Source: Bolinopsis microptera
Lineage: Eukaryota > Ctenophora > Tentaculata > Lobata > Bolinopsidae
Assembly: GCF_026151205.1 (NCBI RefSeq)
Contig: NC_087077.1
Location: 6,100,483 to 6,164,482 of the forward strand
Direction of reading: 5' to 3'
Length of the DNA: 64,000 nt
How positions within the stretch are numbered: the stretch's first letter is position 1; the number at the start of each line of letters is the position of its first letter. A model generated the notes under the pieces. It saw only the letters and a program-made list of their open reading frames with translations, ran no database searches and was not told the origin of the DNA. This document shows, one piece after another, positions 8,171-61,440 of this stretch. The position numbers were made by a program, and so were the translations under genes.

Positions 8171-8274
8171 ATGTATACAGGTATCGTGTTGTCATCTTAC
8201 TACTTTTGCATCCGAATTTATAATCGTTTGTCCATCTAGCGTTTCTCAAATCTGCTGTTGCGTTGTCGTCAACA

Positions 8275-22207: not shown

Positions 22208-22433
22208 GTGAACAAGAGACTCATTTTCAATCAAGTTCTCTTCAACTGTCAACTAATCATTTGAAAACCCCCTCCCCCTTTGTATCACGTGGTGACCCCC
22301 ACTGTCGCTTCACTATACAGGGACGATACAGGGAGATACAGGGAGAGCCGCGCACTTCGTGCTCGGCGGGTCATACAACGTATGACAACTCCCCCTTTGG
22401 CTGATTGCGTAATCTGTGAACACCCCCTAGGGG

Positions 22434-23395: not shown

Positions 23396-24600
23396 ATGGG
23401 CAGAGCGTATCTCCGGCAGCTACTAGCAGCTCTAGATGGAAACTACCCTACATCCAGGAAACCATCATCGAAGGAAGTAGTTGCCCCCACCATTCATAGC
23501 CATAACCGAGTCATGGCTAAAGAGTTACATCTCTGACGCTCAGGTGCAGATAAAAGACTATCGATCGTTTAGATCTGATAGACCAGAGAGAGTAGGAGGA
23601 GGTTGCCTCCTCTATGTTCATGACCAGCTAGTGGTGACAGAAACCGATCACTACGAGGATAGAAGCAATAACATGGTCATGTGCTATGTTAAGTCATGCA
23701 TCACCCTTTTTGCGACTGTCTACAGGCCCCCTGGAGCAGATACTTCAGGCTGGAAGAACTTACTAGACAGACTGCAAGCCAAAATAGATGCGATCTCAGA
23801 AAATACAACGGTGCCACTGCCAGACATATACGTTGTTGGAGATTTCAACTCTCCAGAGATAGACTGGGAACATGGAGGCTTAAGAAGTGAAGCCAGGTGT
23901 CAGGATTTTATAGAGTTTATAGACCGTAACTTTCTAACACAGGTCGTAAACCAATCGACAAGAGAAGGTAGCACCCTAGATCTTGTACTTACAAATGTTC
24001 CTAGGTATTTCGCAGAAGTAAAGGTGAACCCCACATCTTTATCAGACCACAGCTTGGTCGAAATTCAGCTTGGTTTTAATATGACTGGAAGAAAGAAGAA
24101 CGAAACCAGCAAGATCGACCCAAACTCCTTCAGGGCAGTTGACTATCACAAAGCCGATTTTGTGGCAATCAGTGATTGCCTTCAGAAAGTCGACTGGCTG
24201 AAGCTCTGGGAACTCTGTGACGAGGACTTGAACTCTTTTCTGGAATTGTTCAAGCTAACAGTGCTCCAGATTACCTTGGAGTTCTCCCCAAAGAAAGAGA
24301 GTGCAGCGGAGATTACCTCAAGAAAGAGAAGAGGGAATAAGCACGTTTATGTCATGAAAAGAAGACGAAGGAAGATGAATGCTAGGATACGTGCATTACA
24401 GGAAATGAATCCTAGCTCGAGTTTAATCCTAAACTGAAAACGGAGGTTTCACTGCTGTGTTACTCCGTACAGGAAGGGACCCTTGAGAAACTGAACAAAA
24501 AAGAACTCCGGGCAGTCGATGCAATAAAGAAGAACCCCAAATACTTCTTTTCGTATGCCAAGCGTCTCCAGAAGACCAGATCTACGCGATCCCGGTGTTG
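23396..24600 (+). pseudogene. LINE ORF2 endonuclease part
   Basis: After a frame change near 23480 the frame reads FIAITESWL (metal-binding Glu), VYRPPGADTSGW, DIYVVGDFNSPEIDW (Asp and Asn) and SLSDHSLVEIQ (catalytic SDH). These are the apurinic-like endonuclease motifs that nick the target for priming. The domain is followed by the linker (RKRRGNKHVYVMKRRRRKM) and, after another frameshift at 24437, by LKTEVSLLCYSVQEG and NPKYFFSYAKRLQKTRS, ordinary LINE linker sequence, which stops at the inverted tail near 24604. Confidence 0.8.
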
Positions 24601-24633
24601 AGAGTTACTGGGCCGCGCTCAGCCTGTCATTCC

Positions 24634-25682
24634 GCCAAATCTTTATTATTATCTTTATTAATGTTTATGAACATAATAGCCTGGGGTCCCCAGGTAATGT
24701 TGAGAGATGAGACTGGGGCATTAGTGGACGACCCCAGTATCAAGGCAGAGTTACTTCAGAAGCAGTACCAGAAGGTATTTAGAAACCCTATGAGTGCCGA
24801 TATTGATGAATGTATGAAGAGCCAAGGATTACCTCAGGGACTGGATTCCGGATTCAACGAGCTAAGCTTCACAAGAAAAGATATCATTGAAGCATTAGGA
24901 GAACTGGATCCCTATTCGGCCGCACCTGACGGAGAGATTCCTGCTAGGATCATACTCACAGCCTGCAAAGAACAACTTGCAGACCCCTTAACACTCCTCT
25001 GGCAGGAATCGTTCAGCAGTGGGTATATACCAGCGGAATTAAAGACCCAATATATCACCCCTATCTATAAGAAGGGGGACAGAACGGACCCAGCAAACTA
25101 TAGACCAGTGTCTTTAACCTCGCACATCATAAAGACATTTGAGCGTGTAATCAGAAAAAACCTGGTTCGTCATTTGGAAGAGAACATGATGATCAATACG
25201 AACCAGCATGGGTTCAGAAAAAAGAGGAGTTGCATGACGCAGCTTCTCAGTCACATCGAACAGATCTACAAATCACTCAACAATGATGAAGAAGTTGATG
25301 TGATTTACCTCGACTTTGCCAAAGCTTTTGAAAAGGTCGACCATGCAGTGCTGCTAGCCAAGCTTGGTCGATACGGAATTGGTGGTCAGGCTTTAAGGTG
25401 GGTCAAAGAGTTTTTGCTAAACAGAAAACAAACAGTCGTTGTTGAAGGTCGCAAATCATCCTTCCAGCCAGTGGCAAGTGGGGTGCCACAAGGGACAGTC
25501 CTAGGATCGATCCTATTTATTCTGTACATCAACGATCTGTTGAACAGCATTAGCTATAGTAACGGATTCAGCTTTGCAGACGACACAAAGCTGACTGGGG
25601 CTATCCGAGGAATGAGTAGTGTGGAGTTACTGCAAGATGATCTCAACATAGTCATCGAGCGGTCACGTGTTAACAACATGGA
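24634..25682 (+). pseudogene. First copy of the duplicated LINE RT domain
   Basis: Open from the rearranged junction: ITPIYKKGDRTDPANYRPVS, YLDFAKAFEKVDH, GVPQGTVLGSILFILYIND and FSFADDTKL (motifs up to catalytic ADD). It ends abruptly after RSRVNNME where the second copy begins with the sequence that opens this copy (GCCAAATCTTTATTATTATC). It differs from copy two by a 3-base insertion near 24952 and a few substitutions. Confidence 0.85.
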
Positions 25683-27407
25683 GCCAAATCTTTATTATTA
25701 TCTTTATTAATGTTTATGAACATAATAGCCTGGGGTCCCCAGGTAATGTTGAGAGATGAGACTGGGGCATTAGTGGACGACCCCAGTATCAAGGCAGAGT
25801 TACTTCAGAAGCAGTACCAGAAGGTATTTAGTAACCCTATGAGTGCCGATATTGATGAATGTATGAAGAGCCAAGGATTACCTCAGGGACTGGATTCCGG
25901 ATTCAACGAGCTAAGCTTCACAAGAAAAGATATCATTGAAGCATTAGGAGAACTGGATCCCTATTCGGCCGCACCTGACGGAGAGATTCCTGCCAGGATA
26001 CTCACAGCCTGCAAAGAACAACTTGCAGACCCCTTAACACTCCTCTGGCAGGAATCGTTCAGCAGTGGGTATATACCAGCGGAATTAAAGACCCAATATA
26101 TCACCCCTATCTATAAGAAGGGGGACAGAACGGACCCAGCAAACTATAGACCAGTGTCTTTAACCTCGCACATCATAAAGACATTTGAGCGTGTAATCAG
26201 AAAAAACCTGGTTCGTCATTTGGAAGAGAACATGATGATCAATACGAACCAGCATGGGTTCAGAAAAAAGAGGAGTTTCATGACGCAGCTTCTCAGTCAC
26301 ATCGAACAGATCTACAAATCACTCAACAATGATGAAGAAGTTGATGTGATTTACCTCGACTTTGCCAAAGCTTTTGAAAAGGTCGACCATGCAGTGCTGC
26401 TAGCCAAGCTTGGTCGATACGGAATTGGTGGTCAGGCTTTAAGGTGGGTCAAAGAGTTTTTGCTAAACAGAAAACAAACAGTCGTTGTTGAAGGTCGCAA
26501 ATCATCCTTCCAGCCAGTGGCAAGTGGGGTGCCACAAGGGACAGTCCTAGGATCGATCCTATTTATTCTGTACATCAACGATCTGTTGAACAGCATTAGC
26601 TATAGTAACGGATTCAGCTTTGCAGACGACACAAAGCTGACTGGGGCTATCCGAGGAATGAGTAGTGTGGAGTTACTGCAAGATGATCTCAACATAGTCA
26701 TCGAGCGGTCACGTGTTAACAACATGGAGCTACACGAACATAAGTTTGAGGTTGTAAACTACCCCCTGAATGGACCAAAAGCTCTAAGAGAGCTCCCGTT
26801 CTACCCAGAGACTGTTGAGTATACTACACCAAAAGGACACGCAATATCACCACAGGAAACTGTCAGAGACCTTGGAGTGTATGTTAGCAGCAGTAGGTCA
26901 TGGGGTCCTCACATTGAGAAGACAGTTCAAGGAGCTAGAAAAATGGCGGCTTGGACATTGAGTGCCTTTAGAGACCGGTCACAAGTAGTCATGCTGACTT
27001 TATACAAAAGCATGGTTCGCTCCAAGCTAGAGTACTGCTGTCCAGTCTGGAACCCTACAAAAGTCACAGAGATACAAAAGCTGGAGACTTGAGACAGAGT
27101 ACAGAGATCCTTTACTAGAAAGATATCTGGCTGCAGTGATCTCCAGTACTGGGACAGGCTGAAGAAGCTTAAGTTGATGTCCCTTCAGAGGCGGAGAGAG
27201 CGTTATTCTATTATTCATGTATGGAAAATTCTTAATGAACATGCTCCGAACGATACGGGCTTCGAGTTCAAGTCTCATCAAAGGCATGGTATTAAGGCAG
27301 AGATCCCAGCCATGAACAAAAACGCACAGTTGTCGGTAAGAACAGACTACGACAACAGCTTTAGAGTTAGAGCAGCTCAGCTCTTCAACGTGCTCCCATT
27401 TACCTGA
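25683..27407 (+). pseudogene. Second RT copy and LINE C-terminus
   Basis: It repeats copy one and continues past RSRVNNME with LHEHKFEVVNYPLN, LGVYVSSSRSWGPHI, SMVRSKLEYCCPVWNP, then an in-frame TGA at 27090, then RVQRSFTRKISG, RRRERYSIIHVWKILN and the C-terminal RVRAAQLFNVLPFT. This is the RT thumb and C-terminal region of CR1/Jockey-type LINEs. Apart from the TGA the frame is intact. Confidence 0.85.
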
Positions 27408-33680: not shown

Positions 33681-34012
33681 CGATGTGAATACATAGAACA
33701 TGATAATTAGATTAGATTATGATGAAAATCTTTTAAACATACTGGCAGTGCTGATTTACAATTATCTATATGTTGGTCTTTTCTTATCTCTTAGATTAGC
33801 TAACTTATAGAATTGCGCTGCTCAAGCCACCTTTACCTTATAGCTATACATTTTCTGGAATATTCCGTACATCCCGTACATTAGTGTTACATATTCTTAA
33901 TAGTGCTTCTATCAACCTTGCTATTAATCTACGATCTATCAACGGTTACCTGTTTTGACATTCCATTAATTAGTCAATTTAACTGTCACATTTGAGATTT
34001 ATCTGTTATCTG

Positions 34013-35263
34013 ATGGGTTCAAAATCGATATTCACATTTTCTAAAATTGACGATACTCCTCGTATTGATTCTTACTTTTCTTCTGACAGTGCTTTCTCTC
34101 AAAGTGAATCTATTAAACGTGCACTAAATTCAAGTGCAAATAGTTCTGATAGTATAACTAGTGAATCTGGCAAAGAACCTCCGGCTAAAATGCCAGTTAC
34201 TCACAACTTTCAGTCCAGTATTCGTTTTGATGTTGATAAAGCAAGTGATAACCCGTCCGAACTTACGGATTTAAAATCTCTTATTGTTAGCTTGCACAGT
34301 AAATTTGATCAACATCTAAGTGAGATTAATCCTCAACTTCAAGATATTAATAAACGTTTATCAGCTCTTGAAGAGCATTCCAATACGAATATTAGTTCTG
34401 TAACTCAACTTAGAGAGCGTGTAGTGCAGATCGAGCAGAGCGAGTCGAACCTTGAACAGAGAGTCAGAGAGCTTGAGTCAGTTGGGAGTGAGGGTAGAGA
34501 GGATCAAGAGGAGTGGAAGTGGAGTCCCACAGGATCTGACCGAGTTTCCGTAAAACTTTTAGGTGATTCCAACTCCTCAGGTAAGATCAAGTTTGGGGAC
34601 GGCAAAGGAACACTCGGTCCCGCACTTCCAGGGTCCAGTGTTCACTGCCCAACACTCTCCAACCTCACTAACCCAGATTCCCAAGAGTTCGAGAACGTTT
34701 CAGATGTCGTGATTGCAGTAGGGACAAACGACCTCAGACAGCAAGGCAGCAAACCAGAGGAGCTGGTGGAGAACACCTTCACCTACGTTGCAGCTCTGCT
34801 GAAGAAACGCCCCGAGATTCACGTCCTCCTCCCTGGAGTCCTTCCTATCTGCACGCCTGGTAGTGAGACTAACTCAAAAGTTAAGTTATATAATCATTTT
34901 ATCAAGACTATGTGTAACTCCCACATTCGATTAACCTACATTGATACCAAAGTCTTTATGGCAAATGATGGATCTCTGAAAACTGGACTTGCAATGGGTA
35001 CTGAAGACCCCCTTCATCTAAATACCAGTGGTTTAAAGTTGTATTTTAGTAGGATAAAGTATGCTTTACGTGCCCGTCATGACCTCCCAAATTCCAGGAG
35101 AGTGAAAAGTAACACGAGCCCTAGACCCAGGATTAGAGCAGGAGGAGAAGAGCAGATGGATGCTGAACAAGGATCTCAGAATGACAGAGGTGGAAATAGT
35201 TACCACAGAGGACGGGGAGGTGGAACTCGCAGAGGACGGAACTCCAACAGAGGAAGAGGATGA
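34013..35263 (+). CDS. LINE ORF1: coiled coil, SGNH-hydrolase-like domain, RGG tail
   Basis: From ATG 34013 (MGSKSIFTFSKIDD) 416 residues. After a Ser-rich, probably disordered start, residues about 85-160 form a heptad-rich coiled coil (LQDINKRLSALEEH, LRERVVQIEQ, LEQRVRELE). Residues about 175-345 look like an SGNH/GDSL esterase fold: VSVKLLGDSNSSGK (block I with Ser), VVIAVGTNDLRQ (block III GxND) and DPLHLNTSGLKLY (block V DxxH). The C-terminus is an Arg/Gly tail (RGRGGGTRRGRNSNRGRG) likely to bind RNA. ORF1 proteins with esterase domains are known from CR1/L2-type LINEs; here it accompanies an L1/Tx1-like ORF2. It probably forms ribonucleoprotein with the element RNA. Confidence 0.85.
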   Translation: MGSKSIFTFSKIDDTPRIDSYFSSDSAFSQSESIKRALNSSANSSDSITSESGKEPPAKMPVTHNFQSSIRFDVDKASDNPSELTDLKSLIVSLHSKFDQHLSEINPQLQDINKRLSALEEHSNTNISSVTQLRERVVQIEQSESNLEQRVRELESVGSEGREDQEEWKWSPTGSDRVSVKLLGDSNSSGKIKFGDGKGTLGPALPGSSVHCPTLSNLTNPDSQEFENVSDVVIAVGTNDLRQQGSKPEELVENTFTYVAALLKKRPEIHVLLPGVLPICTPGSETNSKVKLYNHFIKTMCNSHIRLTYIDTKVFMANDGSLKTGLAMGTEDPLHLNTSGLKLYFSRIKYALRARHDLPNSRRVKSNTSPRPRIRAGGEEQMDAEQGSQNDRGGNSYHRGRGGGTRRGRNSNRGRG

Positions 35264-36181
35264 ACGGTATATCTCACTCTATCCCACGGTCAGAGTGTTG
35301 TGTTCTAAATTATAAACCACTTTACAAAGCTTAATTCTGAGTAGCATCTTCCTTTTCCTAGTACGCAGTGTAACGTTATAATTTTTACTTAATTTAGGAG
35401 CTTCTGTCCCCCCACAATTTTTGCGATATCTCGTGACTACCTAGTATTATACTACTCATCGACTGTTCGGTATATTTCCAAATCTAACAACTTCATGGCA
35501 GTTTACAATGTGCCATTTATTAGTTTTTTCATCATGTCGTACGACACATTACCCACCTTTATCAGGGTTTATCTTGCCCGCTCACAAACCTCTTCTCTTA
35601 GCAGCTTCACTGCACCATCTTGCCGGCTCATACACTCGTCACCATGTCCGGGTTCATTCACAGCAGGCACCAGGTTCAGGGGTTGGGCCGGGCTGGTCAG
35701 GCGGTGTGGTGTTGGTTGATGGGGGGGTTTGTTGTTGGGTGATGGTGTGTGGGCTTGGGCCAGGTGGTGGCGAGGTCAGGTTCACCTTTCACCTCTCACA
35801 TCCAGCCACTTGAGCCTTTCTAGCCAGATTGATTTCCCTCTGACTTCTATATTGGAGAGTATCAGCTTAGAAGCTTATAGTATTAGGGGGACGCCCCATC
35901 ACGGGATTTCTAGGACTTGTTTAAGCGTATAAAATACATTTACTATATGGGCTATAGCAGCGTTATTTCAGCAATTTCTTGTTTAATGATTCATACATCT
36001 ACTAGTAATAAGATGTGTGATTGCGTGTGTTTTTATCATTTTGTTTTTTTGTCATTGTACAATAACTACTACGTCATTCTTTGCAATATTGGGAGAAACG
36101 GTACTAGACTCAATACTAGCTTTACTCGTCACGAACTTAGTGAAAATAACTTTAGAGCGGCGGCTAATTTCAGAATTTACA

Positions 36182-39100
36182 ATGTCAGAAAATGACAGTG
36201 TAGGAGCCAGTCTTAGGGTAGGTTCTTTCAATTGCAATGGCCTCGGAAACCCCGAGAAACGTAGATCGGTTCTTGGTTGGCTACTAGCTAAACCAGAAGA
36301 TATTATTATGGTACAAGAATCTCACTCTGTAGTTGAAACGGAAGACTTCTGGAGGACAATCTGGGGGGGAGATATTTATTTCAATCATGGTACCTCTAAG
36401 TCCACTGGGGTTACATTCCTGGTCAAACCCAATTCTAATATTAAAATTTGCAGTCACAGGATCATCACACAGGGACGTGTATCACTGTTAGAAATTGAGA
36501 AGGATTCCATCAAGTATTGCTTGGTAAACGTCTATTGTCCTAATAGCAATGATACTTATGTTGTAGAGAACTTGTTCCTGGAAACTCTAGGACGTACAAG
36601 GGATGATTATCGTATCTTGGCTGGGGACTGGAATACTATCTTAAATAATAATCTTGATAAATATGGTGGTAATAGTTCCCACAGTAATACTAAGCGTCAG
36701 CAATATTTGAACCAGGTGACCGCTGATTATGGCATCAGTGATATCTTCCGTCTTAGTAGGGGTAATGAGCGTGTTTATACTCACGTAAATAAACAGCACA
36801 AAACCCAAACACGCCTAGATTTCTTCCTTATAGATGATAGTCTGGTTAATTATCCGGTCTGTAACGCAGATATTAGTCATGGTTTTCGATCTGATCACAG
36901 CTACATTTCATTATCTCTACAGGGTTCCCCCATTAAACGTGGAATAGGATATTGGAAACTTAATAATAGCCATCTAAATAATGAGTCGTTTTTGAGTAAT
37001 GTACGGGAGATTATCAATGAAACTGCTGACAGTAATTTTGATTCGTACTCGGGACTCTGGGACGTGATTAAAATGAAAATTAAAGATTTTGCGATCAGAT
37101 TCGGAAAAAAAGAAAAGAAAGAAAAAGTTGCAAAAAAGAAAAAAATATCCTCTGATATTGAAGGGGTTAAAAAGATAACTGATTTTATGCAGAAAGATGA
37201 TCTGCGCAAAAAATTGTATGACTTGGAATCCCAGCTTGATGGTATCATTAAAGCTGAGGTTAACGGGGCCATGACCAGGTCTAGGATTCAGTGGACAGAG
37301 GAGGGTGAAAGGTCCACCAAATATTTCTTCGGGCTGGAGAAAAGTAGAGCTAAAAAAAAGTCTATTACCAAACTTATTAACAGCGATCAGAGTGTACTAC
37401 GCACACAGCAGGATATTTCTGAGCACGTAGTTAACTTTTATCAGGACATCTTTAGCTCTACGAATCCAAACGAACATGAAATAACCGATTATATTAATTC
37501 CAGTAACCTAGATACTATTGATCAGGAGAACGCTGATAGGTTAGATAGGCCAATTTCCCTCCTGGAGATGGATAGTATTATCAGTAAATTTAAGAAAAAT
37601 AAATCTCCAGGGTGGGACGGCCTCACTGCTGAATTCTACAAAGTATTCTGGGAGGACATTAAGAATATCCTATTTAACTCCTTTTTAGAGTCGGTTGATA
37701 ATGGGGTTATGTCACCTTCACAACGTCTAGGAATTATAACACTTATCCCGAAACCTAAAACCCCCATTGAGTTAAACTATATAAAGAACTGGCGACCAAT
37801 CACCCTTTTGAATGTAGACTATAAGATATTCACTCATATTATAAAAAATAGGATCTTAAGTTCACTTCCAACACTTATTAGTACAGCCCAATCCGGGTTT
37901 CAAAAAGGGAAGAGTACCAGCGATAATCTGATCTTAATGTATCTAACCTTAGAACATTACCATGAGAACCAAGAGGATACTGGTATGATTATGCAGGTCG
38001 ACCTCCAACGGGCTTTCGACTCGGTCGAACATAAGTTTCTTTTCAGTGTCTTGGAAGGTATGGGGTTTGGAAATTATTTAATCAACTTGGTGAGAGTGGC
38101 ATTTCACGCTGGTATGAGTTACGCTAACGTTAACGGACACCTTAGCAGCCCTGTTCACATACTTCGTGGCGTCCATCAGGGGAGCCCCCTTTCCCCAATT
38201 CTTTTCCTCCTAGTGTCCCAGGTACTTAGTAATAAGCTACAGTATAACCCTTATATTAAAGGCCTCAGCATTAATGGTATCGACATACTCATGAGTCTGT
38301 TTGCTGATGACACGGATCTGTACCTGGATCCCTCCCAGGCTTGCGTAGATGCAGTTATACTAGAGCTCAACCTGTTCGGTCAGCACTCAGGCTGTAAGCC
38401 CAACATCAGTAAAACTAAGTGCATACCTTTAGGAGCTACCAGAGACAACACTAGTCTTCGAAATTACCTTACCAGTACATACGGGGAAGACATGGTAGCT
38501 AACGAGTTTACAGCATTAGGAGTCAAGTTCGACAACACGTCTAGTGGAGCTGATCTCTGCAAAATGAACTACCACAGTAAACTTAGTAACGCCAGCACCG
38601 CTATCAACACCTGGAGTAAGAGAGACTTAACTCTGATAGGAAAGTGTACAATTATTAAATCTCTTATTCTTTCCCAGTTCACTTACCTTATCATACCACT
38701 AGAAACTCCTGATACTAACACCATCAGTAAAATAGACACTATGATATTTCACTTCTTGTGGGGTTGTAAGAGGGATAAGTTGAAACGTGATATTGTTACT
38801 TCTCCTCGTGAATGTGGGGGTCTAGGTCTCTTCTATACTAACGATTTTATTATAGGTTTAAAAGTGTCACTTATAGGAAAAGTTATCGATCCTAATTTCC
38901 AACATGCCTGGAAAAATATTATCATCAATCAGCTTTTACACCCAAATATACCAACTGTGTGTATAGAAAACTGCCTCACATTAAAGAATACTGGTTTTAC
39001 CTTTAACCTTCTTCGCCAGTATAAGCTTTGGAAGTCTATTTCTTCACAGTCAAGTAAGAGTACAGTCAACCACTGTGTGTGGGGAAGCGACGTAATAACG

Positions 39101-39964
39101 GACATTGGCTCCAAGCTCTGGAACGATATTCTTATTGATAGAAATATCATCTATCTTTCTGATTTCGTTTCAGAGGAAGGTAACCTCTTAAGTTTTCAGC
39201 AATTTCTGAGAAAGTGGGGCCAAACAAGTAGTATAATCTCTTCGACTCAATATGCGAGTATAAAATTGGGAATACGTCGATTTAATAATACCGATACGTT
39301 TACAAGTAACATTACATTTATCGATACCCAACTTTCACTTCGCTTTTGGGGAGGTAGGAATACCCCCAACTCTAGAGATACTCCTCTCACTATCAAAGGT
39401 AGAAACATTAGAGATACCATGTCTAAGCGTTTAGATCCCAGCACCCTTCCTCCAATGAGGAACTGGAGTGCTAACCTCTCCTTAACGGATATTGATTGGA
39501 TTAGTATTTTTACGGATATTTTTACTTCTTTCTCAAATAACTTCAAACTTATTCAGTACCAATATAAGCTCCTTCACCGGATTAGTACTTGTCGGTACAT
39601 GAGATATAAAATGAAGATTGAAAAAGATAGTCCAAATTGCTCGTTATGTAATCACAACCTCGAAACTATCTCTCACATATTTATTGACTGTCCAGCCACA
39701 AGCTCTTTCCTACAGGGAGTAAATCTGTTTATTAGATCGAATATTGACGCAAATTATGACGACCCATATCGCCACTATTTGATTTGCTTAAATCACAGAG
39801 ATAAAAGTGTTAACTTCATAAATTCGGTTTGCTGTTGGTTTATTGGAAGGAGTTTCCAGAACAAGGAACCCCTATTCTGGGAGCGATATCTTAAACATCT
39901 TAAGCTTTTCTTATTAGGTGAAAAACCGGATATTATACGGTGTCTTAAAGACGTTATACCTTGA
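36182..39964 (+). CDS. LINE ORF2: endonuclease, reverse transcriptase, zinc knuckle
   Basis: Start taken at ATG 36182 (MSENDSVGASLRVG), as the frame upstream lacks ATG and reads like UTR; 1260 residues. Endonuclease: SFNCNGLGNPEKR, IIMVQESHS (Glu), ILAGDWNTIL (Asp, Asn), GFRSDHSYISL (SDH). RT: KSPGWDGLTAEFYKVFW, LIPKPK, NWRPITLLNVDYKI, AQSGFQKGKST, MQVDLQRAFDSVEH, GVHQGSPLSPILFLLVSQ, SLFADDTDLYLD (catalytic FADD). C-terminus: CSLCNHNLETISHIFIDCPA (Cys/His knuckle). The SPGWDGLTAEFYK and FADDTDLY forms are those of the L1/Tx1 group. No stop or frameshift, so target-primed reverse transcription could be possible. Tx1 elements often insert at specific sites, here next to a Harbinger gene. Confidence 0.93.
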   Translation: MSENDSVGASLRVGSFNCNGLGNPEKRRSVLGWLLAKPEDIIMVQESHSVVETEDFWRTIWGGDIYFNHGTSKSTGVTFLVKPNSNIKICSHRIITQGRVSLLEIEKDSIKYCLVNVYCPNSNDTYVVENLFLETLGRTRDDYRILAGDWNTILNNNLDKYGGNSSHSNTKRQQYLNQVTADYGISDIFRLSRGNERVYTHVNKQHKTQTRLDFFLIDDSLVNYPVCNADISHGFRSDHSYISLSLQGSPIKRGIGYWKLNNSHLNNESFLSNVREIINETADSNFDSYSGLWDVIKMKIKDFAIRFGKKEKKEKVAKKKKISSDIEGVKKITDFMQKDDLRKKLYDLESQLDGIIKAEVNGAMTRSRIQWTEEGERSTKYFFGLEKSRAKKKSITKLINSDQSVLRTQQDISEHVVNFYQDIFSSTNPNEHEITDYINSSNLDTIDQENADRLDRPISLLEMDSIISKFKKNKSPGWDGLTAEFYKVFWEDIKNILFNSFLESVDNGVMSPSQRLGIITLIPKPKTPIELNYIKNWRPITLLNVDYKIFTHIIKNRILSSLPTLISTAQSGFQKGKSTSDNLILMYLTLEHYHENQEDTGMIMQVDLQRAFDSVEHKFLFSVLEGMGFGNYLINLVRVAFHAGMSYANVNGHLSSPVHILRGVHQGSPLSPILFLLVSQVLSNKLQYNPYIKGLSINGIDILMSLFADDTDLYLDPSQACVDAVILELNLFGQHSGCKPNISKTKCIPLGATRDNTSLRNYLTSTYGEDMVANEFTALGVKFDNTSSGADLCKMNYHSKLSNASTAINTWSKRDLTLIGKCTIIKSLILSQFTYLIIPLETPDTNTISKIDTMIFHFLWGCKRDKLKRDIVTSPRECGGLGLFYTNDFIIGLKVSLIGKVIDPNFQHAWKNIIINQLLHPNIPTVCIENCLTLKNTGFTFNLLRQYKLWKSISSQSSKSTVNHCVWGSDVITDIGSKLWNDILIDRNIIYLSDFVSEEGNLLSFQQFLRKWGQTSSIISSTQYASIKLGIRRFNNTDTFTSNITFIDTQLSLRFWGGRNTPNSRDTPLTIKGRNIRDTMSKRLDPSTLPPMRNWSANLSLTDIDWISIFTDIFTSFSNNFKLIQYQYKLLHRISTCRYMRYKMKIEKDSPNCSLCNHNLETISHIFIDCPATSSFLQGVNLFIRSNIDANYDDPYRHYLICLNHRDKSVNFINSVCCWFIGRSFQNKEPLFWERYLKHLKLFLLGEKPDIIRCLKDVIP

Positions 39965-40523: not shown

Positions 40524-41249
40524 ATACTGGCTACAAAAAGCATTTTAGTAGTCCGAAGCTGTTCCAACATAAATTGAAACTGAGGTAAAAAGATGCCTAG
40601 CATCAAGTTAAATTTTAAATCATTATGACTGAGTTATGAATATCAAAATAAGGTAGGTGGTCGTTTCGAAGTAAGAATCCTGCAGCTGCACTGAAATATT
40701 GAAATAAATTTTTTTTCGTGCACATACAGAATGAATGGTTAATAATTTAATATATATGTAGACCAAGGTCTGTGCACGGGATGCTTCCTGGAAGAATACC
40801 AATCAAATAATATGATATATATGAGTAGTAACCATATTTACTATGCAAAATGCCCCAACCACATAGTGTAAATTTATATAGAATTCAAATTCCATATCAT
40901 CATTAAACCTCAATACCTAGTCAATATAATAGCCCAAGCAAAATTAAATAACTTCTTATATACCTTACTGTCATACTACAAATTAATTAAACAATTGAAA
41001 TCTGTTGACCAGAGAATAAATTTCTAAGCCTAATGCAAGTGAAATAATTTAGATGCAATAATGAATGCCTAATGTGAGTATCATTTGTCAATGTCCTTGT
41101 AAAAAAGTCTGTACAAGAGATATGAGTAACTAATATAGAAGAAAAAACAGGAAGTTGTCGTCTGTTGTAAAATAAATAAAATATCTAGAATATAAATTAG
41201 AATATAAAATACATTCAGTCAATGTGTCGTCAATAAACTGTACAATTAT
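40523..41249. other. AT-rich sequence between two LINEs, nothing recognised
   Basis: The first bases form the right target duplication of the preceding LINE. No ORF or repeat was recognised. By deletion of the LINE this is contiguous with the Harbinger upstream region, but no matching terminal sequence (GGTGGGCACACC) was found here. Confidence 0.4.
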
Positions 41250-41526
41250 CAAATGTTAAAACTGGGTGATACAGTCACCAAAAAAAATACTAAGTATGAT
41301 AAGTTAATAAATTAAATGTGGTCTATAAAACTACCACTAAGTATAATAGGTCAATAAATTAAAAGTGGTTTATAAAACTACCACTGTGGGAACTGGGAAC
41401 CCCTTCTCCAGTTAAAACATGTCAGTCATGTGCAAAATCAATCAGAATGGTAAGGTGGTAAAAAAGGGAATATCTTTTCGATACATCAATTATATATGCC
41501 TCAGATTTAAAAGAATTAGAAGTTAC

Positions 41527-44502
41527 TTAGTTATCGACGACTATGATTGCAGTGTAAAATTTGTCATATGAATTGTCGACGGTATAATTAGGGTCTGTTG
41601 TTATAGATGATAGTAGCTGTTTCTTATACGAATCACTAAAGCTTTTAACATCGGGCAGATTTCGTAGATCTGTTGGAACATTATTCCAACATTTTGCCCC
41701 CAAGTATTGAAAGTTTTTATGTGATGTTGATCTATTGACATAAAGGTTGCAGCTTTCGCCGCTCCTACTACCTCCTGATATGTAACTAAATTTGTTCATA
41801 AAGTTTGTAGGACAATTGTCATGGATGATTCTAAACATATAATTTGACAGGTGGAGTTGTCGTCTAAGATGGAGTGGTAACCATTTCATGTCTCTATAAA
41901 CATTAAGGCTGCTCTCTGTTTTTGGAACGTTGAGAGCTATTTTGGCTACCTTTTTGTACAGAGTGTCAAGTTCAGCAAGTTTTGTCTTGCCAGCTCTACA
42001 ATAGATCGTGTCTAAATAATCGAATTGTGGCAACATGAGTGCATTGGCAAACATTTTCCTATATTTAATGGGTAGCAGTGCTTTACTTCTATACATGGCA
42101 CCAATTCTCTTCATGACCTTCCTAATAATATAATCTACATGGCTTTTGAAGTTTAATTTACTATCTAGAATGAGGCCAAGATATTTTGTCTCTTTGCACT
42201 CCTTGATTGTGAAAGTTACCTCATTACAATCAATGGTTATTTCATCATGTTGGTCAACAGAATCAAACAATAGGAATTCAGTCTTCTTTTCATTGAGTGA
42301 TAATTTATTAACACTGAGCCATTTAAAGATTGTCATAAGTTCTATTTTCATGTTTATAAATGTGCTTCTGCAGGTTTGATCAAAGAATAGTGCACCATCA
42401 TCTGCAAATAGAAAGGGCTTAGATAGGTTACAGGCATAAATGATGTCATTTATGAAGATACTAAATAATATAGGCCCAATGATGCTTCCTTGTGGTACAC
42501 CACTCAGAACTTCTAAAAATGAGCTTAGATTGCCATTGATCCTAGTGCATTGATATCTACAAGATAAGAAGTTCTTAAACCAGGTTAAAGCAATGCCACC
42601 AATTCCATAATATGCCAATTTTTGAAGCAATATTTCATGATTCACTGTGTCAAAGGCCTTCTTAAGATCAAGAAAGATGATTCCTGGTTTATAAGACTTA
42701 GATTTACTCATATATATTTCGTCCATCAGATCGTACATCAGATAAGTTGTGGAGTGATTTTTCCGAAAGCCATATTGATGCCGGATGAAAAGTTTGTTCT
42801 CTTCCATGTAATCAGTGAGTTGCTTGCCGACAAAGTATTCTATAAGTTTTCCTACAAGTGGAAGGATGGATATTGGCCTGTAATTATTAGGATCATCTTT
42901 CATTCCTGCCTTATGGATGGGAGTTACTCTAGCTTTTTTACAAAGGGTTGGTACAACACCTGTATTAAGGCTCAGATTGACAATGTGGGTCAGTGGCTCA
43001 ACTATGTGTGGTACAGCTTGCTTAAGTAAAAATAGAGGCACATTGTCATATGAGGCCTTGTCATTCTTGAGCGTTTCGACATACATTAGGATATCAGTTT
43101 CATTTATTTCTTGGAATCTATCAAATGAGATATTAGAAGTTCTAGGAGGTAAAAAATCAGTAAAACTAACTCTTTCAATATTGGGGGCCTGATTTTGTAA
43201 TCTTGATCCAACATTTGCAAAATGAAAGTTAAATAGCTCAGGATCATTCTCATTGATAGTTTGACAATTAGTTGTACCAGGGGTCATATTTGATGCCAGT
43301 TTGATAGTTTTCCATATCCCTTTAAGATCATTCTTGGCACTTTTAACTTGTAGATCATCGATTACATTAGCCTTTTTGCAGGTTTTAGCTAATTTATTTC
43401 TAATATTTCTCTGAATCTTGTAGCAATCCCAGGCCTCATTACACTTTATACATTTGCTACATGTACCACATTTATTGCAATTTCCATTGTCTCTCTTATC
43501 CTTCTTTTTACGGAATTTCTTTAGAAGAAAATGTGTATGATTAATGGCATTTAAAAGTTCAGTAGAAGGTTTATGTATGAACTTTTCATGCCTTTCTATG
43601 GTCTTGCAAGGGAAGAAGGTTGCATATGCCTGTTCAATATGATGACAAAGGCCAGCAGTGATAGCTTCAACATCTGTACTTTCCAATAGTGGACTGTAAT
43701 CAGAACAGGTATCTAGATAGTCTAAGAATTGTTTAACATTACGTTTACAATGATTTCTAATTTCAACCTTCTCAAATTTAGGAGCTATAGGTACTTTACA
43801 ATCTATCTCACACATAATAGCTTGATGATCTCCAATACGTTCATCAAGAACAGAAGATTGGACAAAATCTGCATAACAGTTAGTGAATATTACATCAATA
43901 GTAGTCTGGGTAAAATTGTCTCCACGTTTAGCAACTCTAGTTATCCCTTGAATGGTTTGAACTAGATTGTAACATCTCAAGGTCATATCTAATTTTTTGT
44001 ACTGGGTGGATGAGATATTATTCTGGTCAATGTTTATATCCCCAATCCAGATAACCTTTTTCCCATTCAATTTTTTCATGCAAAAATGAATGTATTCAAT
44101 AAAGTTATCAACACTGCAATAATTTCCAGAGCGATAGAAGCAGCAAACATTGATCTTGCTATTCTTAAGCTTCACCCATAATGCTTCAATGTTATCAAGC
44201 TTACTATCCATAACTAATTCTGTGTAAGCTAGTTTTTTGTTTATCATTAAGCCACAACCACCCCTAGAACTGTTTGGCCTGTCGCATCGCATAAGGTTGA
44301 AGGAGGAAGGAATATTTATGGTGTCTGTGTCAATAGTATCATTAAGATTCATCTCATTTAGGGAAAGTATGTCTAATTTATGATCTCTAATAAGTTGGGA
44401 AAGTTCATTACTTTTAGCTAAATTGAGAAGCCCTCCTTGAATGTTACAATGACCAATGCAGAGGTTGTGAAACCTATCAGCTGCATTATTAAAATTTGTC
44501 AT
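41527..44502 (-). CDS. CR1-like LINE ORF2: endonuclease and reverse transcriptase
   Basis: 991 residues from ATG 44502. Endonuclease: CIGHCNIQGGLLN, ILSLNEMNLND (Glu), VIWIGDINIDQNN (Asp, Asn), IGDHQAIMCEI (DH). A Cys-rich insert, CNKCGTCSKCIKCNEAWDC, sits between endonuclease and RT. RT: RVTPIHKAGMKDDPNNYRPI, QYGFRKNHST, IFLDLKKAFDTVNH, LSGVPQGSIIGPILFSIFIN, LFADDGALFF (catalytic ADD), TKYLGLILDSKLNFKSH, and a C-terminal GAKCWNNVPTDLRNLP. The motif forms place it near CR1/Jockey-type LINEs. The Cys cluster (CxxC repeated) could be a zinc site and is unusual at this place. Confidence 0.92.
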   Translation of the reverse strand: MTNFNNAADRFHNLCIGHCNIQGGLLNLAKSNELSQLIRDHKLDILSLNEMNLNDTIDTDTINIPSSFNLMRCDRPNSSRGGCGLMINKKLAYTELVMDSKLDNIEALWVKLKNSKINVCCFYRSGNYCSVDNFIEYIHFCMKKLNGKKVIWIGDINIDQNNISSTQYKKLDMTLRCYNLVQTIQGITRVAKRGDNFTQTTIDVIFTNCYADFVQSSVLDERIGDHQAIMCEIDCKVPIAPKFEKVEIRNHCKRNVKQFLDYLDTCSDYSPLLESTDVEAITAGLCHHIEQAYATFFPCKTIERHEKFIHKPSTELLNAINHTHFLLKKFRKKKDKRDNGNCNKCGTCSKCIKCNEAWDCYKIQRNIRNKLAKTCKKANVIDDLQVKSAKNDLKGIWKTIKLASNMTPGTTNCQTINENDPELFNFHFANVGSRLQNQAPNIERVSFTDFLPPRTSNISFDRFQEINETDILMYVETLKNDKASYDNVPLFLLKQAVPHIVEPLTHIVNLSLNTGVVPTLCKKARVTPIHKAGMKDDPNNYRPISILPLVGKLIEYFVGKQLTDYMEENKLFIRHQYGFRKNHSTTYLMYDLMDEIYMSKSKSYKPGIIFLDLKKAFDTVNHEILLQKLAYYGIGGIALTWFKNFLSCRYQCTRINGNLSSFLEVLSGVPQGSIIGPILFSIFINDIIYACNLSKPFLFADDGALFFDQTCRSTFINMKIELMTIFKWLSVNKLSLNEKKTEFLLFDSVDQHDEITIDCNEVTFTIKECKETKYLGLILDSKLNFKSHVDYIIRKVMKRIGAMYRSKALLPIKYRKMFANALMLPQFDYLDTIYCRAGKTKLAELDTLYKKVAKIALNVPKTESSLNVYRDMKWLPLHLRRQLHLSNYMFRIIHDNCPTNFMNKFSYISGGSRSGESCNLYVNRSTSHKNFQYLGAKCWNNVPTDLRNLPDVKSFSDSYKKQLLSSITTDPNYTVDNSYDKFYTAIIVVDN

Positions 44503-44657
44503 CTTGTGAATCTTATTAATTCACAATGGAATGAATAAAAGTTGTAAAGTTGTGTTTAAACTAAAAAACAGAATAAAAGCAGGTTGTATTTGTCTGGATG
44601 TCGTACTGTAAAAATAAAACTGATGGTAGGAGTGTTATGTCAGTATTCAGCAGTATT

Positions 44658-46313
44658 CTAATGGTGTGCATGATACTTCAAGTGCCTTGCTAATTTAACT
44701 ATGCCATAATCATTGAGATGGACATTATCAGCTCCATAACTACTAAAAAATGACGATTTTCTAAAGCCTTTCTTATCACTAAACAAGAAACGATTTGTCT
44801 CGGTTGAGAGCAGTTTTACATAGGTGTATTTTCTTTGCAGATTTGATATACACTCATTGATATCAGTTATAACCTTGTTTCTGGAGAAACTCTCCCGAGG
44901 TAATAAGTTAACAATTTTAATATCAGCTCCAGGTGCCCACTTGTGAAGGAAAAGTACAAGTTTTTCAATACAATTGTTTGTAAAGTCAAGAGCTCTAGCA
45001 TCACCAGAAAAACTATCAGGGCACAGAAGTTTAGTCCTCATGTTGCGAGGGCTGTTCAGGATAGAGTCCACGTCATTTGTACCACACATAAGTACAATGC
45101 TTTTCACATTATTGGTATTAAGAGTGTCTTTTCTTACATCTGATTGAAACCGTTCATTGATTGCATTGGCTGTGGCACCAGGGTAGCTGAATACATGTGC
45201 CTCATGATGTTTGGACGATAGCTTTTCTCCCTCTAATTTGGAGAACATACTAGAGCTAATGTAGACACACAAAGATTTACCAGAATGTTCTATTGATCTA
45301 GTCTTAGGGGCCGAGGGTTCAGTGTTCTTAACTTGACTGGAAACATCAGACAGAGTAGATAAGGTTGCGCTGCCATCAATTAGGCGCAGAGTAATGCTTA
45401 TTCTCATGGTTTCAGACTTGTCCTGGATGAGGCTGTGTTCAAAGCTGGTCTGGGATTGTCTGGTCATATTCATTATGTCACCATGGGAGAGGGTGAGGTC
45501 AGCAATATGAGCTCTAAGTTTGGATCTGAAGCTTAGGACTCTAGTAGCCCCTAAAGAGATGGTGGAGATCATGGAGCCTGGTGAAATTGACCTCTCGTCA
45601 TCCGAGTGAAAGGGAATTCCTTGCTGACCATTTCTATACTTGGTAATCATAGCACTATTGAATTTCAACTTTGGGAACTGTGAGCGTAAGTGTTCTAAAA
45701 TAGACTTTAGGTATGGATTGTCTGCTACTGGCCTTGTGTTATGAAAGCCTCCATTGTAAGCGTAGGGAAAGTCCCCGTAATATGCAACTGCCCTATTCTC
45801 AAACTTATGAGTATAGTGGGTTTCTATATCTAACTTGGCAGTGTCAACAAACTGAAAAACTCCTCGACTCAAATCTTGGTATGGATTGATAGAGTTGGTC
45901 ACATCATTGTCACCATAATTTACAGAGTGTTTGGGATTTTCCAAATTGATAATTTCTGCTGAATGTTCACTGTCTTCTGCTAATTTGGATAGCTCTTGGG
46001 TTAACTCAGAAACAAGATGCGAGGATGACCTATTACTGAGGGGAACATTGATAGAATGTTCACAGTGATCAGGTACCTGGGGCAACACAGGGATAAGTGA
46101 ACCATCGCTGAGGGGAACTTTGAGTGCACTGTCACTTTCTGATAATTGTTTATAGAGAAAAGAAATTTGCCGACGAAGACTATCATTCTCTCTTAATAGA
46201 GATAAACAATTTGAACATTTATCAGTAGGACAAGAGCCGTTGCTGGGGAATTTAACAGAATTCCCTCGATATCTCAGATTGTAATGTCTTGAGCCAACTG
46301 GTATTCTAGACAT
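44658..46313 (-). CDS. LINE ORF1: AlkB-like dioxygenase fused to SGNH hydrolase domain
   Basis: 551 residues from ATG 46313. The N-terminus has CPTDKCSNC and a leucine-rich coiled segment (36-60). Residues about 150-312 show the AlkB pattern: AYYGDFPYAYNGGFH, MITKYRNGQQGIPFHSDDE with iron ligands His236 and Asp238, STISLGATRVLSFRS, LSHGDIMNM, the distal His293 in FEHSL, and RISITLR with Arg304 and Arg310 for 2-oxoglutarate. AlkB enzymes remove alkyl groups from nucleic acids. Residues about 346-545 follow as an SGNH domain: Ser353-355 in YISSSMF in place of GDS, MCGTNDV (411-414), DNVHLND (Asp529, His532). All AlkB metal and co-substrate residues are present, so activity on element RNA or cDNA is plausible; this is inference. 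Confidence 0.86.
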   Translation of the reverse strand: MSRIPVGSRHYNLRYRGNSVKFPSNGSCPTDKCSNCLSLLRENDSLRRQISFLYKQLSESDSALKVPLSDGSLIPVLPQVPDHCEHSINVPLSNRSSSHLVSELTQELSKLAEDSEHSAEIINLENPKHSVNYGDNDVTNSINPYQDLSRGVFQFVDTAKLDIETHYTHKFENRAVAYYGDFPYAYNGGFHNTRPVADNPYLKSILEHLRSQFPKLKFNSAMITKYRNGQQGIPFHSDDERSISPGSMISTISLGATRVLSFRSKLRAHIADLTLSHGDIMNMTRQSQTSFEHSLIQDKSETMRISITLRLIDGSATLSTLSDVSSQVKNTEPSAPKTRSIEHSGKSLCVYISSSMFSKLEGEKLSSKHHEAHVFSYPGATANAINERFQSDVRKDTLNTNNVKSIVLMCGTNDVDSILNSPRNMRTKLLCPDSFSGDARALDFTNNCIEKLVLFLHKWAPGADIKIVNLLPRESFSRNKVITDINECISNLQRKYTYVKLLSTETNRFLFSDKKGFRKSSFFSSYGADNVHLNDYGIVKLARHLKYHAHH

Positions 46314-46612
46314 AGTTTATCACAAAAAGATGCTACTGTTCGAAATTTAGTTAATGATTACAGTACCTTTGTAGCACTCCGGAGGATAAGGATAAGTGAT
46401 GTCTGATAATCTTTAGGTGATAGATGGGAGTAAACTGCTTTAAAAACCGATGTCTGATAGTCCTTAGGATGTCTTTAAGATAACTTTATCGTGCAACAAC
46501 CATTTACATTGACATACAACCTGTAATGGTCGTTACATTTACCGAGGCATTAGTTCCCACTGGGGGTCCTCAAATTATTTGTTATATAGTAGTGTTGAAA
46601 GTATTAAAGTAG

Positions 46613-58379: not shown

Positions 58380-60491
58380 TGTAGTGGATTTGTGTTCCGG
58401 GGTAGGTGGAACATGTTTTGGTGGTTAAATAGGTAGTACGTGACCCAAACGATCATTAAAACCGAGTTTCGACCTCCCAACCCACTCAGGCCACTCCCAG
58501 GGGCCACGCCCATCCCAAAATTACTGAAAATTAGGTAAAATCAAGACCGAAAATCTTTACCCCCGTAGTGCATTTATGTTCCGGGGTAGGTGGAACATGT
58601 TTTGGTGGTTAAATAGTTAGTACTTGTCCCAAACCATCAGAAAAACCGAGTTTCGACCTCCCAACCCACTCAGGCCACTCCCAGGGGCCACGCCCATCCC
58701 AAAATTACTGAAAATTAGGTAAAATCAAGACCAAAATTCTTTACCCCCGTAGTGCATTTATGTTCCGGGGTAGGTGGAACATGTTTTGGTGGTTAAATAG
58801 TTAGTACTTGTCCCAAACCATCAGAAAAACCGAGTTTCGGCCTCCCAACCCACTCAGGCCACTCCCAGGGGCCACGCCCATCCCAAAATTACTGAAAATT
58901 AGGTAAAATCAAGACCGAAAATCTTTACCCCCGTAGTGCATTTATGTTCCGGGGTAGGTGGAACATGTTTTGGTGGTTAAATAGTTAGTACTTGTCCCAA
59001 ACCATCAGAAAAACCGAGTTTCGACCTCCCAACCCACTCAGGCCACTCCCAGGGGCCACGCCCATCCCAAAATTACTGAAAATTAGGTAAAATCAAGACC
59101 GAAAATCTTTACCCCCGTAGTGCATTTATGTTCCGGGGTAGGTGGAACATGTTTTGGTGGTTAAATAGTTAGTACTTGTCCCAAACCATCAGAAAAACCG
59201 AGTTTCGACCTCCCAACCCACTCAGGCCACTCCCAGGGGCCACGCCCATCCCAAAATTACTGAAAATTAGGTAAAATCAAGACCGAAAATCTTTACCCCC
59301 GTAGTGCATTTATGTTCCGGGGTAGGTGGAACATGTTTTGGTGGTTAAATAGTTAGTACTTGTCCCAAACCATCAGAAAAACCGAGTTTCGACCTCCCAA
59401 CCCACTCAGGCCACTCCCAGGGGCCACGCCCATCCCAAAATTACTGAAAATTAGGTAAAATCAAGACCGAAAATCTTTACCCCCGTAGTGCATTTATGTT
59501 CCGGGGTAGGTGGAACATGTTTTGGTGGTTAAATAGTTAGTACTTGTCCCAAACCATCAGAAAAACCGAGTTTCGACCTCCCAACCCACTCAGGCCACTC
59601 CCAGGGGCCACGCCCATCCCAAAATTACTGAAAATTAGGTAAAATCAAGACCGAAAATCTTTACCCCCGTAGTGCATTTATGTTCCGGGGTAGGTGGAAC
59701 ATGTTTTGGTGGTTAAATAGTTAGTACTTGTCCCAAACCATCAGAAAAACCGAGTTTCGACCTCCCAACCCACTCAGGCCCACTCCCAGGGGCCACGCCC
59801 ATCCCAAAATTACTGAAATTACTGAAATTATTGAAAATTAGGTAAAATCAAGACCGAAAATCTTTACCCCCGTAGTGCATTTATGTTCCGGGGTAGGTGG
59901 AACATGTTTTGGTGGTTAAATAGTTAGTACTTGACCCAAACCATCAGAAAAACCGAGTTTCGACCTCCCAACCCACTCAGGCCACTCCCAGGGGCCACGC
60001 CCATCCCAAAATTACTGAAATTACTGAAAATTAGGTAAAATCAAGACCGAAAATCTTTACCCCCGTAGTGCATTTATGTTCCGGGGTAGGTGGAACATGT
60101 TTTGGTGGTTAAATAGTTAGGACTTGACTCAAACCATCAGAAAAACCAAGTTTCGACCTCCCAACCCACTCAGGCCACTCCCAGGGGCCACGACCATCCC
60201 AAAATTACTGAAATTACTGAAATTATTGAAAATTAGGTAAAATCAAGACCGTAAATCTTTACCCCCGTAGTGCATTTATGTTCCGGGGTAGGTGGAACAT
60301 GTTTTGGTGGTTAAATAGTTAGTACTTGACCCAAACGATCAGAAAAACCGAGTTTCGACCTCCCAACCCAATCAGGCCACTCCCAGGGGCCACGCCCATC
60401 CCAAAATTACTGAAAATTAGGTAAAATCAAGACCGAAAATCTTTACCCCCGTAGTGCATTTATGTAGGTGGAACATGTTTTGGTGGTTAAA
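58380..60491. repeat. 184-bp satellite array, about 11.5 units
   Basis: The landmark GTAGTGCATTTATG recurs at 58571, 58755, 58939, 59123, 59307, 59491, 59675, 59879, 60071, 60273 and 60457 (position of CATTTATG). The spacing is exactly 184 for the first six intervals, then 204, 192, 202 and 184, because ATTACTGAA units are inserted in the later copies. The central units are almost identical, implying recent homogenisation. No ORF spans it. Confidence 0.97.
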
Positions 60492-61440
60492 TTTTTGGTA
60501 TTGCGAAGGGGAGGTCTGCCTTCCGATATCGCATTACAAAGGGTAACCCTCGAGTCCAAAATCGTATATCGAAGGGTAGGTGCGGACTTCGAAAACCGAA
60601 AAAAATATTTTTGGCTCAGAATGATCAGAGTAGCATGAAACATGAACAAAAGTAGTTTCCAAGAAAACTTTGAAAATTTTTGACTTAGAAAATTTTCGGT
60701 CCGAGTCATTCTCGATACGTACCTCTGAAAGCAGAGCTCCCGCTTCCGAGCTCGTATTGCGAAGGGGAGCCCTGCCTTCCGAGATCGCATTACAAAGGGG
60801 AACCCTCGAGTCCAAAATCGTATATCGAACTTCGAAAACCGAAAAAAATATTTTTGGCTCAGAATGATCAGAGTAGCATGAAACATGAACAAAAGTAGTT
60901 TCCAAGAAAACTTTGAAAATTTTTGACTTAGAAAATTTTCGGTCCGAGTCATTCTCGATACGTACCTCTGAAAGCAGAGCTCCCGCTTCCGAGCTCGTAT
61001 TGCGAAGGGGAGCCCTGCCTTCCGAGATCGCATTACAAAGGGGAACCCTCGAGTCCAAAATCGTATATCGAACTTCGAAAACCGAAAAAAATATTTTTGG
61101 CTCAGAATGATCAGAGTAGCATGAAACATGAACAAAAGTAGTTTCCAAGAAAACTTTGAAAATTTTTGACTTAGAAAATGTTCGGTCCGAGTCATTCTCG
61201 ATACGTACCTCTGAAAGCAGAGCTCCCGCTTCCGAGCTCGTATTGCGAAGGGGAGCCCTGCCTTCCGAGATCGCATTACAAAGGGGAACCCTCGAGTCCA
61301 AAATCGTACTTCGAAAACCGAAAAAAATATTTTTGGCTCAGAATGATCAGAGTAGCATGAAACATGAACAAAAGTAGTTTCCAAGAAAACTTTGAAAATT
61401 TTTGACTTTGAAAATTTTTGACTTTCAAAATTTTTGAGAA
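60492..61440. repeat. 243-bp tandem array, about 3.7 units
   Basis: AAAATTTTTGACTTAGAAAA recurs with a period of 243 at 60674, 60917 and 61160. Units are nearly identical; the first has an extra GAAGGGTAGGTGCGGA. Because 243 is a multiple of three, long open frames exist on both strands (up to 313 codons on the minus strand); these are artefacts of the period. The end decays into AAAATTTTTGACTTT repeats at 61395-61440. 61441-61640 is a spacer with a C-run at 61511-61524 and a G-run at 61612. Confidence 0.95.

Follow-up and report, generated by a model that had tools for sequence, protein, structure and literature searches.

An intact and recently multiplied non-long-terminal-repeat (non-LTR) retrotransposon of the ctenophore Bolinopsis microptera encodes, in the protein of its first open reading frame (ORF1), an AlkB-type dioxygenase joined to an SGNH-like hydrolase. 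The element lies in a window of 64,000 nt, the whole stretch of DNA analysed here (NC_087077.1, positions 6,100,483 to 6,164,482; assembly GCF_026151205.1). The presence of the same pair of domains in quite different elements of this one genome suggests that transposable elements may bring along a demethylase of their own. The parts of the element, in window coordinates, are these:

40698 to 46608, minus strand (the sense strand): the whole non-LTR retrotransposon, about 5.9 kb, its ends taken from the comparison of copies.
46314 to 46608, minus strand: 5' untranslated region (UTR); the family has two alternative 5' leaders, either of which occurs with ORF1 of type A as well as of type B (below).
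44658 to 46313, minus strand: ORF1, 551 amino acids (aa), made up of an N-terminal region, the AlkB domain, a linker and the SGNH-like domain.
46116 to 46232, minus strand: cysteine-rich stretch (CPTDKCSNC, from residue 28) and a predicted helical, coiled-coil-like stretch, in the fast-evolving N-terminal part of the ORF1 protein (ORF1p).
45360 to 45899, minus strand: AlkB (2OG-FeII_Oxy_2) domain, residues 139-318, with H236, D238, H293, R304, R310, Y226, E240 and R174.
44661 to 45281, minus strand: SGNH-like domain, residues 345-551, with SSS353-355, G379, GTND411-414 and D529/H532.
41527 to 44502, minus strand: ORF2, 991 aa, apurinic-type endonuclease (EEP) and reverse transcriptase (RT).
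44323 to 44502, minus strand: the first ~60 codons of ORF2, on the divergent side of the boundary of the exchange between type A and type B ORF1s, placed by synonymous divergence (dS) and sliding identity.
40698 to 41526, minus strand: 3' UTR, ending without a poly(A) tail, from the comparison of copies.

An earlier note on this DNA had described an unbroken frame of 551 codons and given no strand; the interval is indeed a single ATG-to-stop frame, on the minus strand, and its plus-strand reading is riddled with stops. A chance frame is rejected, since 60 surrogates drawn from an order-2 Markov model of the 64-kb window reached at most 219 codons without a stop. The intact endonuclease and RT frame said to lie directly downstream is likewise in place, ORF2 starting 155 nt further on the same strand, and its matches to RVT_1 (E 6.3e-36) and Exo_endo_phos (E 2e-7), both above the Pfam cut-off, identify the element as a non-LTR retrotransposon, or long interspersed nuclear element (LINE), as do its dispersed copies with common ends.

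The reading of the protein as a LINE ORF1p with an AlkB domain, for which a profile search and a structure prediction had been proposed as checks, is supported by both. The 2OG-FeII_Oxy_2 profile matches residues 193-310 with E 7.3e-19 and 69.2 bits against a Pfam cut-off of 31.2 (66.7 bits in type B), the nearest PDB chains by sequence are ALKBH2 (8.3e-14) and then ALKBH3 (7.6e-11), and identity to these two proteins is 27-30%. The residues named in the earlier note all stand exactly where it had placed them, namely H236, D238, H293 and RISITLR at 304-310, with GTND at 411 and DNVH at 529. The profile score, the HxD...H iron triad with RxxxxxR, and a double-stranded beta-helix of AlkB type, predicted with high confidence, together place the domain in the AlkB family; the lack of such a helix at residues 150-312, which the note had named as refuting its claim, did not come about. 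The model alignment held 21 of 25 viral-contig loci (three duplicates or near-duplicates and L032 were left out), and a single-sequence AlphaFold prediction of the whole ORF1p was set aside at a predicted local distance difference test (pLDDT) score of 35. Fold searches listed AlkB relatives alone, the missing SGNH row there being uninformative, and several AlkBs from plant RNA virus replicases and giant viruses stand near the top when viral models are searched by fold.

The claim of an SGNH hydrolase domain survives in a weaker form than that in which it was made. Lipase_GDSL_2 matches ORF1 residues 367-537 with E 1.9e-4 and 22.4 bits, under the Pfam cut-off of 32.9, and the domain is called SGNH-like here because the window copy does not reach that cut-off; type B scores 16.2 bits, while the related frame L094, described below, scores 34.7 bits and lies above it. 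G379, N413, D529 and H532 of the SGNH blocks are present, block I reads SSS instead of GDS, leaving S354 or S355 as candidate nucleophile, and the blocks of the window copy recur in type B copies. This part of the model consists of alternating strands and helices at low confidence (block pLDDT 28-76), and no PDB chain was found by sequence with the SGNH domain alone as query. In the N-terminal region a simple heptad score gave no clear winner, and helices appear at residues 30-58 in a low-confidence model.

The genome of this species, which was the eukaryote data covered (264.65 Mb in 232 contigs), lists 82 ORF1 matches. Twenty-three copies, the window included, span residues 1-551 at 95-100% identity and constitute type A, 22 of them stop-free and one with one stop; a further copy spans the same residues at 87% with ten stops. 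The divergent ORF1 of type B is present in 16 copies at 64-66% identity, all 16 stop-free, and the remaining matches are partial or decayed. Since stop-free copies stand elsewhere in the genome, a chimera of a single locus, the assembly error that had been raised as a possible undoing of the claim, is excluded. At the 5' end, similarity stops 289-301 bp before the ORF1 ATG in 10 of 12 type A upstream regions (query L034 and the window counted), two being shorter, and the 3' end is common to all 10 copies compared, that is, the window and nine others (four type A, five type B). Target-site duplications were looked for in five A and five B copies and could not be discerned: the copies gave shared words of only 6-10 bp, and a single 42-bp match lies within a tandem repeat.

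In none of the 39 full or near-full frames (23 A, 16 B) has an iron ligand, either arginine, Y226, E240 or R174 been lost; one type B copy has a short deletion elsewhere in the AlkB domain. Types A and B are 81-83% identical in the AlkB domain, 65-66% in the SGNH-like domain and 38-39% in the N-terminus; the ratio of nonsynonymous to synonymous divergence (dN/dS) in AlkB ranges from 0.091 to 0.098 when three B copies are compared with the window, and synonymous sites of the SGNH part are saturated between types. Within type A, the corresponding polymorphism ratio (pN/pS) is 0.22 for AlkB, 0.33 for SGNH and 1.08 for the N-terminus. The AlkB domain is therefore under strong purifying selection.

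Some further observations concern the copies and their base composition. A cluster of ORF1 copies lies at G000:C4:415356-524550, some of them decayed with many stops, and two of its members, L079 and L081, share about 89% DNA identity with the window element. A hypermutation signature (CpG, A-to-G) was looked for in the decayed copies L061, L079, L081 and L055 and was not seen. The ORFs of the element (window 40698-46608) are CpG-poor, with observed/expected ratios of 0.35 in ORF1 and 0.31 in ORF2, 0.67 in the 5' UTR, and raised TpG/CpA; in this they differ from the window's other LINEs, four frames of which (from two LINEs) stand at 0.57-0.72, and from those of its frames that look single-copy.

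Comparison of the two types reveals that ORF1 switches partners while ORF2 stays, and that ORF1 is a module moving between elements. Between types A and B, dS is about 1.16 in AlkB, 0.67 in ORF2 codons 1-60 and 0.04 in codons 61-991 (L070), and six B copies with a full ORF2 in one alignment are 98.1-98.4% identical to the window ORF2. Sliding identity at the ORF2 start climbs from about 78% to 99% within 200 nt in all three B copies plotted, and either 5' leader is paired with both ORF1 types. Fast evolution alone is rejected as the cause of the ORF1 divergence because synonymous divergence changes as well, falling from about 1.2 to 0.04 once codon 60 of ORF2 is passed. A second LINE pair, L086 and L087, has the same step at the ORF2 start, its ORF1s being 55% and the first 149 ORF2 residues 97% identical. 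The exchange would have come about by template switching or DNA recombination. Two other candidates were not retained: L061, taken from tblastn (39.6%) as a type A ORF1 on a divergent ORF2, was dropped, its DNA being 94.4% identical from ORF1 into ORF2, and a third ORF1 type on a similar ORF2 (L080) was seen in a decayed copy alone and is not counted as a case.

Moreover, the fusion of AlkB and SGNH, presented in the earlier note as a single case, proves to be real and to be one of many transposon AlkB frames. At least 150 AlkB matches stand in the genome, a lower bound given that 150 of 587 candidates were scored, and among those listed, all above the family cut-off, 146 lie in frames of at least 300 aa, 114 in frames of at least 500 aa and 6 in frames of at least 2000 aa. 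Beyond the window type, five LINE-like frames, three host-like frames and one of the six listed frames of at least 2000 aa were sampled. The proposed search for the fusion in other LINEs was answered by all five LINE-like frames (L086, L087, L088, L089 and L090), in which AlkB is above cut-off; SGNH is under the Pfam cut-off in four of them (8.3e-6, 2.4e-5, 0.001 and 4.9e-7), and that of L090 has no Pfam match at 0.01 and is recognised by its similarity (2.6e-9) to the SGNH-bearing ORF1 of the window's second LINE, described below. L089 and L090 have an additional sub-threshold PHD-like zinc finger. Downstream frames carry EEP above cut-off in L086 and L087, the next frame of L090 matches the window endonuclease weakly (4e-4) and is resembled by that of L089, and no downstream frame was found for L088 within the short piece examined. 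L094, on the minus strand of G000:C3:14437500-14446500, combines SGNH (Lipase_GDSL_2 3.2e-8, above cut-off), AlkB (2OG-FeII_Oxy_2 4.6e-21), DUF6570 and a Helitron Rep (Helitron_like_N 2.9e-22) in a single open frame that is at least 2039 aa long.

The window itself holds two further LINE-like stretches. In the second LINE, at 33992-39964 (plus strand), ORF1 (423 aa) has SGNH above cut-off and lacks AlkB, and EEP, RT and zf-RVT share a frame of 1315 aa; similarity (7e-16) connects its SGNH with the one in L089, a PHD-AlkB-SGNH LINE. In the third stretch, at 22280-27092 (plus strand), ORF1 shows motifs that resemble Cys/His fingers (weak CCCH matches), and two RT frames (24595-25710 and 25710-27092) overlap and have near-identical starting residues, as if partly duplicated.

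A tree of 32 AlkB domains, including 14 of 25 viral-contig loci and five of seven plasmid or phage AlkBs, indicates that the AlkBs of transposons constitute a separate family. Eight of them (seven LINE-like, one Helitron-type), deeply diverged from each other, are set apart from host, human, phage and bacterial AlkBs by a branch with support 100/99 that recurs in 200 of 200 bootstrap trees, and the iron ligands and both arginines are kept in all eight of these widely diverged elements. Three of the eight are very long branches, and long-branch attraction may contribute to the grouping; the remaining five alone still group (100/100). Among the host-like genes within the top AlkB matches, L091 groups with human ALKBH2 (100/99), and L092 and L093 with human ALKBH3 (94/93). 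Approximately unbiased (AU) tests reject neither a grouping of the transposon clade with ALKBH2 (p 0.192) nor one with ALKBH3 (p 0.215). Searches of viral contigs (with ORF1, ORF2 and the transposon-AlkB alignment as queries) and of genome contigs (with the alignment) confirmed no relative, and phage and plasmid collections returned ordinary AlkBs only (9 and 63 records).

Taken as a whole, the best explanation, and one that we hold to be probable with some reserve, is an ORF1p whose own AlkB dioxygenase, joined to the SGNH-like part, clears blocking alkyl groups from template or complementary DNA (cDNA) to the presumed benefit of the element. RNA binding is a role of ORF1p known from other LINEs, and here ORF1p would bind the element RNA and thereby carry the enzyme into the ribonucleoprotein. 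There the enzyme would strip methyl or alkyl groups at N1-adenine and N3-cytosine-type positions, which block base pairing (m1A and m3C in RNA; 1mA and 3mC in DNA), from the RNA template or from single-stranded cDNA during target-primed reverse transcription, and possibly also host-added marks. The ALKBH2/3 class acts on base-pair-blocking methyl groups, which makes these the likely substrate, and the lack of the ALKBH2 finger makes single strands the likely form of it. For the SGNH-like part, anchoring or targeting of the particle is the probable role, by analogy with the proposal for the ZfL2-1 esterase. It is very likely that the dioxygenase is catalytically active, and action on nucleic acid is nearly as likely; that its targets are blocking lesions in the template or cDNA of the element itself has about an even chance, and action on regulatory N6-methyladenosine (m6A) is improbable. 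More tentatively, and with somewhat less than an even chance, the transposons of this genome may share a dedicated ancient AlkB family, usually with an SGNH-like domain, passed between LINE backbones and between LINE and Helitron, a portable counter-measure by which they would rid their own RNA or DNA of alkyl marks that block or silence.

Several observations weigh against this explanation, among them the sub-threshold SGNH match given above. The Asn of N-x-Y, which contacts 2-oxoglutarate in other AlkBs and is taken here as a finer active-site detail that does not define the family, is replaced by Thr in the window and in all 39 A and B frames; among the eight sampled transposon AlkBs it is Asn in four, with Thr in one further LINE and Ser in another. 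Further, the transposon proteins compared lack VFGKWH, the DNA-probing finger that ALKBH2 has in the host and in humans, so that ALKBH2-like repair of double-stranded DNA is not suggested; nor do these proteins look like ALKBH2 orthologues, since they lack the finger and stand on a separate branch, though the AU test (p 0.19) does not reject a grouping with ALKBH2. Finally, the m6A eraser ALKBH5 lowers LINE-1 retrotransposition in human cells (PMC7873242), and m6A erasure therefore need not help a LINE.

That last point bears on an epitranscriptomic counter-defence, in which host marks such as m6A would be erased from element RNA or host transcripts, altering stability, stress-granule capture or translation. 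We regard it as rather unlikely, even with the AlkB domain under constraint, orchid Gypsy AlkBs showing m6A demethylase and RNA-binding activity in vitro, and plant ALKBH9B reported to release retroelement RNA from m6A-dependent sequestration (PMC9289625). A link to DNA methylation, in which germ-line copies of the element would be heavily methylated at CpG and the enzyme would repair 3mC made by DNA methyltransferases (DNMTs) or otherwise ease insertion into, or expression from, methylated DNA, appears less probable again. The CpG depletion (0.31-0.35 in the ORFs versus 0.57-0.72 in the other LINE frames) and the raised TpG/CpA hint at such methylation, but they are a correlate that may have other causes, the ALKBH2 finger is missing, and removal of 5-methylcytosine is not known to be a main activity of AlkB. 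In its favour, ALKB2 repairs DNMT-introduced 3mC and tends to vanish together with CpG methylation (PMC7343188).

It is also conceivable, with a still smaller chance, that the AlkB fold is retained for nucleic-acid binding or structure and performs no catalysis: esterase-type ORF1 proteins are described without known RNA-binding domains (PMC3905857), a role that the AlkB fold, with a calculated isoelectric point (pI) of 9.15 and its N-x-Y Asn lost, could fill. Pure binding would not require the three iron ligands and both arginines, whose retention in all 39 frames and all eight sampled transposon AlkBs therefore disfavours this account. That a host ALKBH2/3 gene was captured recently, or that the domain is a one-off unimportant passenger or an assembly artefact, is very improbable given the dozens of intact copies, the purifying selection and the deep divergence among the eight transposon AlkBs, even with possible donors in the genome (ALKBH2-like L091, ALKBH3-like L092 and L093) and with neither grouping rejected by the AU tests (p 0.19 and 0.215), which leave a close capture standing but do not show it.

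Elsewhere in the window, a protein kinase frame at 8263-9141 (plus strand; Pkinase 1.8e-47) and a rhodopsin-type seven-transmembrane frame at 9817-10809 (minus strand; 6.7e-10) are likely host genes, and the overlapping frames of a repeated unit, RFWTRGFPFVMRSRKAGLPFAIRARKRELCFQRY, at 60443-61384 (minus strand) are probably a tandem repeat and not a gene.

If the enzyme of the AlkB-SGNH ORF1p is active, animal retrotransposons would carry their own nucleic-acid demethylase inside ORF1p, and host use of base methylation against retroelements becomes testable, given the many intact copies, a mutable active site and an SGNH-only LINE for comparison in the same window. Exchanged ORF1s on ORF2 backbones that are nearly identical show that ORF1 evolves as a swappable module, and AlkB with SGNH in a Helitron-type frame would, if borne out in more copies, indicate a function useful to unrelated transposons. 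In the literature on AlkB, dioxygenases or SGNH in retroelements and Helitrons, no AlkB LINE ORF1 or AlkB Helitron was found, in a coverage without most subscription papers, bioRxiv and Repbase, so that either may already be recorded in a database.

Among CR1, L2, RTEX and Penelope-like elements, ORF1s with an esterase are known and are described with a coiled coil or a zinc finger/leucine zipper (PMC3905857, PMC4120745). The type IV (esterase) ORF1 of CR1/L2-type LINEs, such as ZfL2-1 ORF1p, resembles that of the window element in its C-terminal SGNH-type domain, its Cys- and helix-rich N-terminus and the EEP and RT of its ORF2; the window element differs in having AlkB between N-terminus and esterase, a domain not mentioned for type IV in the accessible parts of these two sources. 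AlkB has been described from Gypsy elements of orchids and from RNA viruses of plants (PMC9289625). The Phalaenopsis Ty3/Gypsy elements are likewise retrotransposons encoding an AlkB-family enzyme, but they are plant LTR elements with a separate AlkB ORF that is ALKBH5/9-like, m6A-active in vitro and, by the title of the paper, a recent acquisition (PMC9289625), whereas the ctenophore AlkBs sit in non-LTR elements and a Helitron-type frame, belong to the ALKBH2/3 class and are fused to SGNH. Animal ALKBH2 and ALKBH3, the closest solved structures by sequence and fold, share the iron, 2-oxoglutarate and E175-equivalent residues with the transposon AlkBs, which differ in their 27-30% identity, separate branch, missing VFGKWH finger and variable N-x-Y Asn. 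Plant RNA virus replicases and giant viruses also place AlkB in a selfish replicon, though of other kinds and with no SGNH fusion among the listed names. Finally, a platyfish Helitron with a captured SGNH hydrolase gene (PMC4021074) shares SGNH-in-Helitron with L094; AlkB is not mentioned there in the accessible text, whereas L094 combines SGNH, AlkB and Rep in one frame.
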